From Pseudomonas sp. R76 (lineage in GTDB: Bacteria > Pseudomonadota > Gammaproteobacteria > Pseudomonadales > Pseudomonadaceae), in the NCBI RefSeq assembly GCF_009834565.1, contig NZ_CP019428.1, positions 4,774,001 to 4,838,000 of the forward strand: a DNA stretch of 64,000 bases. Reading direction: 5' to 3'. The first letter of the stretch is position 1; the number at the start of each line of letters is the position of its first letter. Below are positions 56,042 to 61,208 of the stretch, one piece after another. The position numbers and the translations under genes are program-made. Under the pieces are notes generated by a model. It did not search any database, was not told where the DNA came from, and saw only the letters and a list, made by a program, of their open reading frames with translations.

Positions 56042-58174
56042 TCAGCCGTTGGGCCCTACTGTCGCGACGATAGTCACTTGCTTGTTGTCAGGAATTTCCT
56101 GATAAGCCAAAACGTGCAAATTCGGTACTGCCAGGCGTCCAAACCGCGACAACATCGCGCGGACCGGGCCTGCCACCAGCAGAATCACCGGGTGACCCGC
56201 CATTTCCTGGCGCTGCGCGGCTTCGATCAACGAGCGCTGCAGTTTTTCCGCCATGCTTGGCTCCAGCAGAACGCCCTCTTCCTGGCCTTGTCCTGCCTTC
56301 TGAATACTATTGAGCAATATTTGTTCCAACCTTGGCTCCAAGGTAATAACAGGCAGCTCAGACTCAATGCCTACAATGCTTTGCACGATTGCACGGGACA
56401 ATCCGACGCGCACCGCCGCCACCAAAGCGGCAGTATCTTGACTCTTGGCGGCATTGTTGGCGATGGCCTCGGCGATGCTGCGAATGTCGCGTACCGGCAC
56501 CTGTTCGGCAAGCAAGGCTTGCAGCACTTTGAGCAACTGCGACAGCGACAGCACGCCCGGCACCAGCTCTTCGGCCAATTTTGGCGAGGCTTTGGCCAGC
56601 AACTCCATCAATTGCTGGACTTCCTCGTGGCCGATCAGCTCGTGGGAGTGTTTGTACAGGATCTGGTTGAGGTGCGTGGCGACTACGGTGCTGGCGTCCA
56701 CCACGGTGTAACCGAGGGATTGCGCCTGGCTGCGCTGGCTGACTTCAATCCACACCGCTTCGAGGCCAAAAGCCGGATCTTTGGCGGTGATGCCGTTAAG
56801 CGTACCGAACACCTGGCCGGGGTTGATCGCCAGTTCGCGGTCGGGGTAAATCTCGGCTTCGGCCAGGATCACGCCCATCAGGGTCAACCGGTAGGCGCTG
56901 GGCGCCAGGTCGAGGTTGTCGCGGATATGCACGGTGGGCATCAGGAAGCCCAGGTCCTGGGACAGCTTCTTGCGCACGCCCTTGATCCGCGCCAGCAATT
57001 GGCCGCCCTGGTTGCGGTCCACCAACGGAATCAAGCGGTAGCCGACTTCCAGGCCGATCATGTCGATCGGGGTTACGTCATCCCAGCCAAGCTCCTTGGT
57101 TTCCTGGGCGCGGGCCGGGGACGGCAGCAGGTCTTGTTGGCGGGCGATCTCCTGCTGGGCCAGGACCTTGACCTGGTTTTGCTTGCGCCAGAACAGGTAA
57201 GCACCGCCGGCTGCCATGGCCGCCATGCTCAGGAACGAGACGTGCGGCATGCCCGGCACGATGCCCATGATCGCCATGATGCCCGCCGCCACGGCCAGCG
57301 CTTTGGGCGAGGCGAACATCTGCCGGCTGATCTGCTTGCCCATGTCTTCGGAGCCCGAAGCACGGGTCACCATGATCGCCGCCGCTGTGGATAACAACAG
57401 TGATGGCAATTGCGCCACTAAACCGTCACCGATGGTCAGCAAGGCATACACCTTGCCCGCATCGCCGAAGGTCATGCCGTGCTGGAAGATACCGACCGCC
57501 ATGCCGCCGATCAGGTTGATGAACAGAATCAACAGGCCGGCGATGGCGTCACCGCGTACGAATTTGCTCGCGCCGTCCATGGAACCATAGAACTCGGCCT
57601 CCTGGGCCACTTCCAGGCGGCGGGACTTGGCCTGGTTCTGGTCGATCAGGCCGGCGTTGAGGTCGGCGTCGATGGCCATTTGTTTGCCGGGCATGGCGTC
57701 GAGGGTAAACCGCGCGCTCACCTCGGAAATCCGCCCGGCGCCCTTGGTCACCACCACGAAGTTGATGATCATCAGGATCGCGAACACCACGATACCGACC
57801 ACGTAGTTACCGCCGATCACCACCTCACCGAAAGCCTGGATAACCTTACCGGCGGCGGCGTGGCCGTCCTGGCCGTGGAGCATCACCACCCGCGTGGACG
57901 CCACATTGAGCGCCAGGCGCAGCAGCGTTGCAATCAGCAGGATGGTGGGGAAAACCGCGAAATCCAGTGGGCGCAGGGCGTACACGCAGACCAGCAGCAC
58001 CACCACCGACAAGGCGATGTTGAAGGTGAAGAACACATCGAGCAGGAACGGCGGCATCGGCAACATCATCATTGCCAGCATCACCAGCAACAACAACGGC
58101 ACACCCAGGTTGCCCCGCGACAAGTCAGTCAGGGTGCCACGGGCCGTGTTGAGCATTTGAGAGCGATCTACCAC
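56042..58174 (-). CDS. flhA: Flagellar export gate protein FlhA
   Basis: A 710-residue inner-membrane export-gate protein (P. aeruginosa FlhA 707). N-terminal half with eight membrane helices (NLGVPLLLLVMLAMMMLPMPP onward), the conserved cytoplasmic FHIPEP-type loop (AGRISEVSARFTLDAMPGKQMAID), and a large C-terminal cytoplasmic domain that docks substrates. The GTG at 58174 was chosen because it gives the family N-terminus VDRSQMLNTARG and has GAGGA upstream. A sigma54-type promoter lies at 58238-58252, making this the first gene of flhA-flhF-fleN-fliA. Confidence 0.95.
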   Translation of the reverse strand: MVDRSQMLNTARGTLTDLSRGNLGVPLLLLVMLAMMMLPMPPFLLDVFFTFNIALSVVVLLVCVYALRPLDFAVFPTILLIATLLRLALNVASTRVVMLHGQDGHAAAGKVIQAFGEVVIGGNYVVGIVVFAILMIINFVVVTKGAGRISEVSARFTLDAMPGKQMAIDADLNAGLIDQNQAKSRRLEVAQEAEFYGSMDGASKFVRGDAIAGLLILFINLIGGMAVGIFQHGMTFGDAGKVYALLTIGDGLVAQLPSLLLSTAAAIMVTRASGSEDMGKQISRQMFASPKALAVAAGIMAIMGIVPGMPHVSFLSMAAMAAGGAYLFWRKQNQVKVLAQQEIARQQDLLPSPARAQETKELGWDDVTPIDMIGLEVGYRLIPLVDRNQGGQLLARIKGVRKKLSQDLGFLMPTVHIRDNLDLAPSAYRLTLMGVILAEAEIYPDRELAINPGQVFGTLNGITAKDPAFGLEAVWIEVSQRSQAQSLGYTVVDASTVVATHLNQILYKHSHELIGHEEVQQLMELLAKASPKLAEELVPGVLSLSQLLKVLQALLAEQVPVRDIRSIAEAIANNAAKSQDTAALVAAVRVGLSRAIVQSIVGIESELPVITLEPRLEQILLNSIQKAGQGQEEGVLLEPSMAEKLQRSLIEAAQRQEMAGHPVILLVAGPVRAMLSRFGRLAVPNLHVLAYQEIPDNKQVTIVATVGPNG

Positions 58175-58237
58175 CGGTATTCCTCGTGTTCCTTGAAGCA
58201 AAGTTTTGACGCTGAGAGGCGTCCTGGAGGCGGTATT

Positions 58238-58372: not shown

Positions 58373-58495
58373 GATCGTTCCCACGCTCTGCGTGGGAATG
58401 CAGCCAGGGACGCTCCGCGTCCCAACTTGAGCCCTGCGCAACGGTGACGCAGAGCGTCACGGGAGGCATTCCCACGCGGGTGCGTGGGAACGATC
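58373..58495. repeat. REPIN copy 1 flanking the DUF6124-like gene
   Basis: 123 bases from GATCGTTCCCACGCTCTGCG to TGCGTGGGAACGATC. By eye it differs at nine positions from the copy at 58949-59071, in the same orientation. Inner stems GGGACGCTCCGCGTCCC and GTGACGCAGAGCGTCAC are present. Confidence 0.9.
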
Positions 58496-58670
58496 TTCAC
58501 AGTTGGAACTGTGTACATCTGCTGCCATTGAGGAAATTTCCGACAAGGTTTTCGGGTTGCCCCTAGGAACTGGGCTCACTAGTCTCCGCACACCGCTGCA
58601 AACGCAGTGGTCGGGCGTCGCGGCTCGCAATATCAAGGAGCTCTCTTATTTCTTTCCACGGAGCGACGCC

Positions 58671-58931
58671 ATGTCCAAAACCACACAAAACGCCCCCACC
58701 GTGCTCTTCACCTTCATCGACGGCATCAGCACCGAAGACCTGATGGTCAACCTCACCGAAACCCTGGCTTCCACCCACGCACTGACCTGCGATTTCGCCT
58801 TTGATCTAGAAGGTTCGCAGCGAGAAGGCGCGCTGGGCATAGCGCAGTTGATTGAGGTAGCGAAGTTGCTGGCTGATCGACTGCTGGATGAGCGAGAACC
58901 GTCATCCGCAGCAACGCAGGGCAACCCCTAG
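58671..58931 (+). CDS. Small DUF6124/DUF3077-like protein
   Basis: An 86-residue acidic, soluble protein without signal peptide or membrane helix. It resembles the small DUF6124/DUF3077 proteins common in Pseudomonas: FIDGISTEDLMVNLTETLASTHALTCDFAFDLEGSQREGALGIAQLIEVAKLLADRLLDE. Function unknown. The ATG at 58671 has CGGAG eight bases upstream; the frame is open further upstream but without similarity. It is the only plus-strand gene in the flagellar block and is bracketed by two direct 123-bp REPINs. Confidence 0.75.
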   Translation: MSKTTQNAPTVLFTFIDGISTEDLMVNLTETLASTHALTCDFAFDLEGSQREGALGIAQLIEVAKLLADRLLDEREPSSAATQGNP

Positions 58932-58948: not shown

Positions 58949-59071
58949 GATCGTTCCCGCGCTCTGCGTGGGAATGCCGCCTGGGACGCTCTGCGTCCCG
59001 ATTTGAGCCCTGCGCAACGGTGACGCGGAGCGTCACGGGATGCATTCCCACGCGGGAGCGTGGGAACGATC
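58949..59071. repeat. REPIN copy 2 flanking the DUF6124-like gene
   Basis: 123 bases from GATCGTTCCCGCGCTCTGCG to AGCGTGGGAACGATC, same orientation as copy 1. Its right end overlaps the stop codon of the cold-shock gene by two bases. Confidence 0.9.
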
Positions 59072-59276
59072 AATCAACAGGCCGTAAGTTAGCGGCCTGC
59101 AGGCCTTTTGCCCCTTGAGTAACCTCGTATTCTACTTTTTGGTTCTCTTCCAGAGTCTTGTACCCATCCCGTGCTATTGCTGAGAAGTGGACGAAAACAT
59201 CCGGGCTCCCATCGTCTTGCGTAATAAACCCAAAACCCTTTTCAGCGTTAAACCATTTCACTTTGCCTGTTGCCAT
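59070..59276 (-). CDS. Cold-shock protein, CspA family
   Basis: A 68-residue single cold-shock domain. All nucleic-acid-binding features are intact: [15 protein letters not shown] (RNP1), DVFVHFSAI (RNP2), and the C-terminal [26 protein letters not shown]. It binds single-stranded RNA/DNA as an RNA chaperone. AGGAG lies ten bases before the ATG. It is 44 bp downstream of a second, diverged cold-shock-domain gene on the same strand and may be co-transcribed. It is inserted between flhB and flhA. Confidence 0.95.
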
Positions 59277-59320: not shown

Positions 59321-59521
59321 CTAGATAATCTTTATGTAGAGCGCAAAGACGCCCGTGGGCCGATGAATCCTCGCCAGTTGCACCCGCTGCCCATTTTTCA
59401 ACCGGCGCGCACCCAGACTCCTGCGATCCACACGTACGGGCTCTTCGCCGCCATCCACTGCGATCCAACCTTCACCGGTTTTTTGGTTGTACGATTTGAT
59501 CGTGCCCGTCACCGCTTCCAT
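59321..59521 (-). CDS. Diverged cold-shock-domain-like protein
   Basis: A 66-residue protein that keeps the framework of a cold-shock domain ([20 protein letters not shown] at the place of [15 protein letters not shown]; then [14 protein letters not shown] and a hydrophobic end) but has lost most of the aromatic nucleic-acid contacts: Trp to Ser, KGFGFI to TGEGWI, and VFVHF to PVRVD. It is therefore unlikely to bind single strands in the usual way. The start has a strong GGGGGAG. Upstream, 79 bp before the ATG, is the perfect palindrome also found before the third gene. Confidence 0.65.
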
Positions 59522-59599
59522 CACCACTCCCCCTGCATCTCGCAACTACTTGTGTGCAGTGTGTGCTGTCATGGAACCGCAGGAAGGCGAGGCTGGCTA

Positions 59600-59615
59600 C
59601 TGTCAAAGTTGACAG
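59600..59615. promoter_or_regulatory. Palindromic operator copy 1
   Basis: CTGTCAAAGTTGACAG: two seven-base arms around AG. Identical to the copy at 59961-59976; the surrounding 45 bases are also related. On the minus strand it contains TTGACA, which may be the -35 of the diverged cold-shock gene, so bound regulator would cover the promoter. Confidence 0.6.
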
Positions 59616-59716
59616 GTAGACGGGGGTTGCGGACGGGTGGTAGAGGGCGGGTGAAAACCGAGGAACATGCTGAGCGGCTTGCCACAACAAGCGCTGTTCC
59701 CGGACCGGGTCCAGTT

Positions 59717-59887
59717 TTATTTTTTTCGCTGGCGAGATGTTCGCGCCTTGGGCGGCACCGGCAACACATCGACTGCGCTGCATTGATCGCCCGCCGGCTG
59801 CACGGGCACCGCATTGCCATCGCGGTCCCTGGCAATAAAACCAATGCCCTTGACCGCGTCGAACCACCTGACCGTGCCCCTGTCCAT
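59717..59887 (-). CDS. Short cold-shock-domain remnant or small protein
   Basis: A 56-codon frame starting MDRGTVRWFDAVKGIGFIAR, which is the first strand pair of a cold-shock domain with RNP1 nearly intact (KGIGFI). RNP2 is lost (AVPVQP in place of VFVHF) and the protein ends in a basic tail (KARTSRQRKK) instead of the second half of the barrel. GGGAGAG precedes the ATG and the palindrome at 59961 lies 74 bp upstream. It may be a decaying paralogue or a new small nucleic-acid-binding protein. Confidence 0.5.
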   Translation of the reverse strand: MDRGTVRWFDAVKGIGFIARDRDGNAVPVQPAGDQCSAVDVLPVPPKARTSRQRKK

Positions 59888-59960
59888 CACCGCTCTCCCG
59901 AGCAGCGCATAAAGGCGCGCCGCGCCGCTCTATCAAACAGTGAAGGCGGTGTAATGGGTA

Positions 59961-59976
59961 CTGTCAAAGTTGACAG
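59961..59976. promoter_or_regulatory. Palindromic operator copy 2
   Basis: CTGTCAAAGTTGACAG, identical to the copy at 59600. Both are flanked by TA on the left and GTA on the right, and by related GAAGGCG and GGGTT blocks, showing that promoter and gene were duplicated together. Confidence 0.6.
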
Positions 59977-60021
59977 GTAAGCGCGGGTTTTAGACAGATG
60001 GCCGGCGTTGGCTGTTATACC

Positions 60022-60071: not shown

Positions 60072-61208
60072 TCAGGAATCGCGGCGCAAGTCCGGTGGAA
60101 TCGGCAGGTCTTTAAGCGGATCAGGCCGCTTGCCCTTGCCCGCCCGGTACTGGCGGATCTGATAGACGTAGGCCAACACCTGCGCCACCGCCAAATACAG
60201 CCCTGCAGGAATCTCCTGATCCAGATCCGTGGAGTAGAAAATCGAGCGCGCCAGCTCCGGCGACTCCAGCAACAGGATGTCGTTGGCCACGGCGATTTCG
60301 CGGATTTTCAGCGCGGTAAAGTCGCTGCCCTTGGCCAGCAGCATCGGCGCGCCGCCCTTCTCCGGGTCGTACTTGAGCGCCACGGCGTAGTGGGTCGGGT
60401 TGGTGATGACCACGTCGGCATCCGGCACCGCCGCCATCATCTTGCGCTGGGACATTTCGCGCTGCAGCTGACGAATACGCTGTTTGACCTCGGGGCGGCC
60501 CTCTTGGTCTTTGTGCTCGTCGCGCACTTCCTGCTTGGTCATCAGCAGCTTCTTGTGGCTCTCCCACAGCTGGATCGGCGCGTCCACGGCGGCGATGATG
60601 ATCAGCCCGCAGGCCATCCACAGCGCACTCCAGCCCACCACTTGCACGCTATGGATGATCGCCGACTCCAGCGGCTCATGGGCGATGCGCAGCAAGTCGT
60701 CGATGTCGGACGACAACACCGTCAGCGCCACAAACAGAATCAGGATGAATTTCGCCAGCGCCTTGAGCAGCTCCACCAACGCCTTGGTGGAAAACATGCG
60801 CTTGAGCCCAGGCCCAGGGTTCATGCGGCTGAACTTGGGCGCCATGCTGCCGGCGGCGAACAGCCAGCCGCCGAGGGACACCGGCCCGATCAAGGCCGCC
60901 AACAGCAGCGTGATCAGCACCGGCTGCACCGCCAGAATTGCGATCTTGCCCGAGTGCAGCAGGTACTGGCCCATGGCGCCGGGGCTGAGCAGCACTTCGC
61001 GGGGCAAGGAGAAGTTGAGTTTCATCAACTCCATCATGTCCAGCGCCAAACCACCGCCGTAAATCAACAGGCCACCGGAGCCGGCGAGCATCACGGCGAG
61101 GGTATTGAGCTCTTTGGAGCGCGCAATCTCGCCCTTTTCCCTGGAGTCCTTTTTACGTTTCTCCGTGGGGTCTTCTGTTTTGTCCTGACCACTCTCGCTC
61201 TCGGCCAT
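60072..61208 (-). CDS. flhB: Flagellar export switch protein FlhB
   Basis: A 378-residue protein with four membrane helices (about 30-210) and a cytoplasmic domain holding the self-cleavage site NPTH (VVITNPTHYAVALKYD, about residue 267), which switches export from hook to filament. The N-terminus is charged (EKRKKDSREKGEIARSKEL), as in the family. It starts three bases after fliR and is the last gene of the fliM-N-O-P-Q-R-flhB run here. Confidence 0.96.
   Translation of the reverse strand: MAESESGQDKTEDPTEKRKKDSREKGEIARSKELNTLAVMLAGSGGLLIYGGGLALDMMELMKLNFSLPREVLLSPGAMGQYLLHSGKIAILAVQPVLITLLLAALIGPVSLGGWLFAAGSMAPKFSRMNPGPGLKRMFSTKALVELLKALAKFILILFVALTVLSSDIDDLLRIAHEPLESAIIHSVQVVGWSALWMACGLIIIAAVDAPIQLWESHKKLLMTKQEVRDEHKDQEGRPEVKQRIRQLQREMSQRKMMAAVPDADVVITNPTHYAVALKYDPEKGGAPMLLAKGSDFTALKIREIAVANDILLLESPELARSIFYSTDLDQEIPAGLYLAVAQVLAYVYQIRQYRAGKGKRPDPLKDLPIPPDLRRDS

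Follow-up and report, generated by a model that had tools for sequence, protein, structure and literature searches.

Lux boxes, the sites of LuxR-type regulators, are centred at -42.5, and the las/rhl, Cvi and cep boxes are further representatives of these elements. At class II activator sites, a palindrome lies near -43 and an accompanying -35 element is lacking. LexA boxes likewise follow a CTGT-N8-ACAG outline and have an A/T-rich centre of the ATATATAT type. Among proteins, the RNP1 and RNP2 motifs of the cold-shock proteins are aromatic. The V. fischeri lux box is given as ACCTGTAGGATCGTACAGGT in the part of PMC4444344 available to us. According to the accessible sections of PMC8546723, the subgroup A LuxR solos (PpoR, PplR and Ppu16R) are the most widespread in their group and are flanked by genes for a ferredoxin-NADP reductase and a 23S rRNA methyltransferase, while their molecular response mechanism is called unknown there. 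Neither an operator nor a direct regulon of subgroup A is described in the accessible parts of PMC8546723, PMC2703642 and PMC11543582.

Here, we describe two promoters in the flagellar export locus of Pseudomonas sp. R76 that resemble a lux box-controlled promoter in outline and position. In the window, i.e. the whole stretch of 64,000 nucleotides that was analysed, two small ORFs with weak matches to the Pfam cold-shock domain (CSD) and an ordinary cold-shock protein gene (csp) lie on the minus strand between flhB and flhA, in the order CSD-3, CSD-2 and csp (Table 1). A first-pass annotation had pointed to this three-gene cluster and to the same palindrome in front of its two unusual members, and both observations hold: CTGTCAAAGTTGACAG, with the arms CTGTCAA and TTGACAG, is present upstream of each, reading CTGTCAACTTTGACAG in gene direction. 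The palindrome had been called perfect, which is correct for the arms but not for the central AG, which is not self-complementary (7+2+7). It had also been placed 74-79 bp before the start codons, close to the distances measured here, which are 70-73 bp for CSD-3 (GTG 59890 or ATG 59887) and 75-78 bp for CSD-2 (GTG 59524 or ATG 59521).

Allowing up to three mismatches, a search of the window returned only these two places (four strand matches vs 0.32 expected). Across the 6.83-Mb genome, there are three copies of the exact 16-mer, namely the two window sites and one at 863203, and the strict pattern CTGTCAANNTTGACAG occurs at four sites compared to none for the reversed-pattern control. Besides the csd and csp frames, the flhB-flhA gap holds a DUF6124 gene (58671-58931, plus strand), which by eye is flanked by two long inverted-repeat copies of the GATCGTTCCCACGC...GCGTGGGAACGATC type (58377-58500 and 58950-59075). 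Among the frames seen in the gap, none was recognised as a repressor gene. In the gap of P. veronii (L294:4410-5876), the ordinary csp frame is not listed and one gene has, by eye, a PAAR-like start; judging from this content, the flhB-flhA gap may be an insertion spot.

Table 1. Features of the flhB-flhA gap (window positions) and exact matches to the composite promoter pattern (for promoters 3 and 4, genome positions)
Feature	Positions	Strand	Remarks
flhB, upstream neighbour	60072..61208	-	Bac_export_2 match
Putative lux-box-like operator (ACCTGTCAACTTTGACAGTA) of flhB-proximal gene	59959..59978	-	core 59961-59976
Predicted -10, TTTGAT	59932..59937	-	23 bp past palindrome; predicted transcript start ~59925
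CSD-3, truncated cold-shock-domain gene	59717..59887	-	56 aa from ATG; 57 aa from GTG 59890
Second putative lux-box-like operator (ACCTGTCAACTTTGACAGTA)	59598..59617	-	core 59600-59615
Predicted -10, TTCCAT	59571..59576	-	23 bp past palindrome; predicted transcript start ~59564
CSD-2, divergent cold-shock-fold protein	59321..59521	-	66 aa from ATG
Ordinary cold-shock protein gene	59070..59276	-	68 aa from ATG; without a palindrome of its own
flhA frame from first possible start, downstream neighbour	56042..58201	-	FHIPEP 876.5 bits
Exact composite promoters 1 and 2			both window promoters (CSD-3, CSD-2)
Exact composite promoter 3	1112149-1112193		before 378-aa gene divergent from XaxA-like gene (YaxA E 1.9e-9)
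Exact composite promoter 4	3844396-3844440		before gene of at least 475 aa, no Pfam match

The two genes behind the palindromes are unusual relatives of the cold-shock proteins CspA, CspE and CspD. Whereas the ordinary Csp matches the Pfam CSD with 106.8 bits, both small ORFs stay below the gathering cut-off of 27 bits (21.2 and 21.4 bits, the latter for CSD-3, where the match spans residues 4-26 of the 57-aa version). CSD-3 is truncated: it retains the first CSD half including an RNP1-like KGIGFI, with a basic tail at its end. The CSD-2 frame is intact in seven genomes, the other six versions being 36-47% identical to that of the window; in closer pairs dN is well under dS (0.05 vs 0.47; 0.22 vs 1.08), and a structure model (mean pLDDT 85.5) adopts the five-stranded cold-shock (OB) fold with a TM score of 0.86 to CspA. 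Given the maintained frame, the low dN and the fold of the model, CSD-2 looks like a real gene. Unlike the cold-shock proteins, however, it carries GEGWIAV and PVRVDRR at the RNP1 and RNP2 positions, and we infer that CSD-2 and CSD-3 would both act as small proteins of the cold-shock fold, the nucleic-acid surface being altered in CSD-2. The proposal that promoter and gene were duplicated as a unit would fit the promoters and start regions, which align, but less so the proteins, as CSD-3 shares 57% identity with the ordinary Csp over 21 residues and only 37% with CSD-2 over 27 residues; on sequence grounds, a cassette duplication is plausible. A CSD profile search matched 39 of 119 Pseudomonas genomes, with 33 of the 40 matches at 21-27 bits and mostly in frames of at least 200 aa; among these weak matches, G053 alone was examined further.

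While the proteins diverge, the site stays, as the first-pass annotation had noticed for the window. In a named collection, all seven Pseudomonas records with a CSD-2 relative (P. rhodesiae, P. lurida, P. veronii, P. marginalis, P. grimontii, P. extremorientalis and Pseudomonas sp. MIACH) keep both the site and the -10 element; the arms are perfect in six and have one mismatch in P. extremorientalis. In these records the palindrome and the matched start that follows it are 64-85 bp apart, and TTCCAT or TTCTAT is found at offset 39 in every case. Four of the seven records are new, the P. rhodesiae, P. lurida and P. grimontii records overlapping G004, G040 and G101 of the genome set; an eighth locus from this search, L298, is unrelated and was left out of the count. 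In the flhB region of nine genomes, a -10 at offset 39 accompanies 12 of the 12 sites inspected, 11 of which precede CSD genes and one an FKBP gene. Conservation of the site and constancy of its spacing support the earlier suggestion that these promoters hold the site of a dedicated regulator. In genome G099, the two genes and their two sites are arranged as in the window; the CSD-3-like frame there has 58 aa, and one of the sites has the centre ACTC. The FKBP-type isomerase gene of this genome (L122:1107-1550) lies behind a third palindrome, which has a -10 at the same spacing.

A scan of related Pseudomonas genomes, proposed at the outset as a check, found CTGTCAANNTTGACAG at 75 sites in 34 of 119 genomes, compared to 2 of 119 for the reversed pattern. 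Using a simple ORF picker to call the genes behind them, the strict sites precede many unrelated genes, among them csp-like genes (L070, L072), the FKBP gene of G099 and a LuxR-HTH gene. The relaxed pattern CTGTCAN4TGACAG reaches 0-35 sites per genome (controls 0-2). A variant 16-mer with a class B centre, CTGTCATTTCTGACAG, is present in 31 of the 119 genomes and is unusually expanded in G044 (27 copies), G070 (21) and G037 (12). Its sites show the same geometry: of the 23 that could be oriented, 16 have a T at offset 44 (33 distinct sites in the loci examined, of which a further 6 are ambiguous and 4 without a gene). Among nine target genes searched against Pfam, the only ones to receive a name were those for an alpha/beta hydrolase and for a thioredoxin-like protein; for a protein that is RHS-like by eye, no convincing solved structural relative was found. 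In G079 and G006, a 106-aa LuxR-type HTH gene lies 113 bp past the palindrome (L131:1501-1821, L132); in L131 it adjoins a frame that is RHS/TccC-like by eye. At another locus, L017, a response-regulator gene is followed by one whose product has a sensor domain of the solute-binding type. Finally, at four loci (L001:1480-1540, L093, L096 and L108) the palindrome lies within a longer terminator-like hairpin and precedes a family of 165-175-aa proteins; the -10 geometry was not seen there.

The surroundings of the strict sites share a directional layout. Of the 75 sites, 74 were retrieved (all except G040:C23:474); dropping 8 that had no gene within 300 bp, 1 that lacked a 65-aa ORF and 13 with genes on both sides left 52 flanked by a gene on a single side, or 43 after removal of 9 redundant ones. 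The resulting consensus is A[AC]CTGTCAACTTTGACAGTAG, with A or C at -1 in 43 of 43 sites and T at +16 in 32 of 43; conservation of the core is imposed, since strict sites were chosen by pattern. About 23 bp past the palindrome (offset 39-44) lies an A/T-rich, -10-like hexamer. Scored as at least three of four key bases at offset 38-41, it is present in 36 of the 43 sites, while other windows of the same width give a mean of 10.1 and a maximum of 19; leaving out the flhB-gap sites, the figures are 31 of 38, 9.2 and 18. TWNNAT is matched in full at offset 39 by 10 of the 43 sites when read toward the gene and by 1 of the 43 when read the other way. Under a stricter -10 score, no more than 4 of 52 sites pass at this offset, meaning that the -10 is weak. 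As the palindrome centre is 31.5 bp from the start of the -10, it would be situated near -43, and the transcript starts predicted from the -10 (~59564 and ~59925) replace those near 59590 and 59950 that had been expected before. The composite pattern CTGTNAN4TNACAG-N23-TWNNAT, which was derived from these same sites, has four exact matches in the 6.83-Mb genome, two of them the window's own, and none for the reversed control (Table 1). With up to one mismatch, it is found at 13 places (control 0), four of which lack a close ORF: at L304, L309 and L310 none of at least 60 aa begins within 260 bp, and at L303 the only one is distant.

This geometry also bears on two other ways to read the palindrome. 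On the minus strand it contains TTGACA, which had led to the suggestion that an Xre- or phage-type repressor covers the -35. Such an operator would overlap the -35 and have a -10 about 17 bp downstream, an arrangement that is not found: none of the 52 oriented sites passes the -10 score 16-18 bp from TTGACA, and the mean score at 17 bp is -6.4, near or below the background of about -5 at most other positions, compared to -0.8 at offset 39. TTGACA is thus probably not the -35, and the site would sit at an activator position, leaving the repressor highly improbable. We give similarly poor odds to the palindrome acting as RNA, be it as a terminator stem or a processing site. In L001 and L093 it does lie at the core of a longer inverted repeat with a T run behind it, but the window palindromes have neither an extended stem nor an adjacent T run, and the consensus has a direction and keeps a set distance to a -10.

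The closest match among the operators considered is the lux box. With the V. fischeri luxI element the palindrome shares a 20-bp inverted repeat, ACCTGT-N8-ACAG, that includes the CTGT...ACAG arms, and it takes the place of a -35, some 43 bp ahead of the predicted start. This position near -42.5, together with the missing -35 and the fixed spacing to a -10, recurs at 36 of 43 sites as judged by predicted -10 elements. The inner bases differ, being CAACTTTG rather than AGGATCGT, and no LuxI gene was seen beside the palindrome. The arms would also fit a LexA box, but the centre CAACTTTG departs from the A/T-rich type, and a position fixed at -43 points to activation. In a literature search on the motif letters, no Pseudomonas lux box with this sequence was recognised among the matches listed. 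We consider it likely that the palindrome is the site of a LuxR-type activator.

Three proteins of the window's genome have a LuxR autoinducer domain, and a short protein has only the LuxR-type HTH (GerE 67.3 bits; 89 aa, G000:C1:4734069-4734335) and no receptor domain. One of the three, encoded at G000:C1:5882100-5882807, is a candidate subgroup A (PpoR-type) solo: its autoinducer domain matches PF03472 with 111.1 bits (cut-off 23), and its neighbours are a flavin reductase gene of the ferredoxin-NADP reductase type (NAD_binding_1/FAD_binding_6) and a methyltransferase gene (MTS), Pfam matches that fit the two enzymes described for subgroup A without naming them exactly. The neighbour ORFs are the same in eight genomes, those in which orthology to subgroup A was checked by neighbours. 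A search with PF00765 (LuxI) gave no match in this genome, nor did it in the control genomes. In the parts of the published work available, PplR acts mostly positively, with 79 of 84 changed genes falling in the mutant, which fits an activator; the accessible portions of the expression lists for PpoR of P. putida and PplR of P. plecoglossicida contain targets unlike this regulon. Literature searches combining the solo with cold shock, and LuxR with xaxA, returned no title on this regulon among the matches listed.

The distribution of sites and candidates was compared with family cut-offs set after seeing the data (at least 80 bits for the solo, at least 59 bits for the family of the short protein) and without regard to phylogeny. 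At least four relaxed sites are found in 61 of 119 genomes, all 61 of which have a solo match or a member of the short protein's family, compared to 0 of the 26 genomes with neither. Solo matches are present in all 34 strict-site genomes (only partially in G088) and in 48 of the other 85; 27 of the 82 genomes with a solo match have fewer than four sites. The short protein's family occurs in 17 of the 34 strict-site genomes and in 15 of the other 85, with 12 of these 32 holding a full-length LuxR homologue instead of the short form. Eight genomes with at least three relaxed sites and no solo match all have the short protein's family and no strict sites. This pattern suggests that both proteins may read related sites. 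G090 has one in-frame stop in each candidate frame (C18:123854-124552 and C1:825091-825351), yet keeps three strict sites, and the solo match of G074 also contains a stop.

The short LuxR-HTH protein might then read the site in place of the solo, acting constitutively or through its own level. Clear orthologues exist in 20 of the 119 genomes, 17 of them with strict sites; its family, counting full-length homologues, is present in 10 of the 12 genomes with at least two class B CTGTCATTTCTGACAG sites; and the leaders of the short luxR genes in four genomes (L162, L171, L173 and L174) contain a CTGTCAATAGGAGG-like half-site (CTGTCAATAGGAGGA), possibly for autoregulation. As the sole regulator, however, it would be incomplete, with its family missing from half of the strict-site genomes, including G084 (eight strict sites) and G053 (four), and with the stop in the G090 copy, so that we regard this option as unlikely. 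A shade less probable is another activator bound at -43, such as a NarL/FixJ response regulator. A response-regulator gene (L017:1490-3000; Response_reg 90.7 bits, GerE 59.4 bits) has a related site, CTGTCATTTCTCACAG, 53 bp ahead of its start, but that site has no -10 at offset 39, and the ACCTGT-N8-ACAG outline fits a lux box.

Taken together, we assign a probability of roughly 0.6 to the reading that the palindromes are operators of a LuxR-type activator in a wider regulon, with the subgroup A solo as the likeliest regulator. Each palindrome would be a putative lux-box-like operator, where a dimer at about -43 would stand in for the absent -35 element and bring RNA polymerase to the weak -10, thereby switching on the CSD gene behind it. 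Activation by a regulator at the site is what we infer from this layout. The two sites of the window would belong to a Pseudomonas regulon of otherwise unrelated genes. That the subgroup A solo itself reads the site is a tentative assignment, to which we give somewhat less than even odds, the short LuxR-HTH protein being the second candidate; the signal would be an acyl-homoserine lactone or another compound. More speculative, and in our view rather doubtful, is the extension that the solo directly activates toxin-like genes (the XaxA-like locus, RHS-like), large surface-type genes and degenerate cold-shock-fold genes, such that foreign quorum signals would elicit competitive behaviour and the CSD pair would tie this response to the flagellar export locus.

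If the reading is true, the subgroup A solo, which is found in most fluorescent pseudomonads, would gain an operator and a regulon. Its mechanism would become directly testable through a concrete operator, a promoter geometry and, in this genome, 4 exact and 13 near-exact target promoters. Within a flagellar locus, cold-shock-fold proteins that diverge rapidly would also come under a control that looks signal-dependent.
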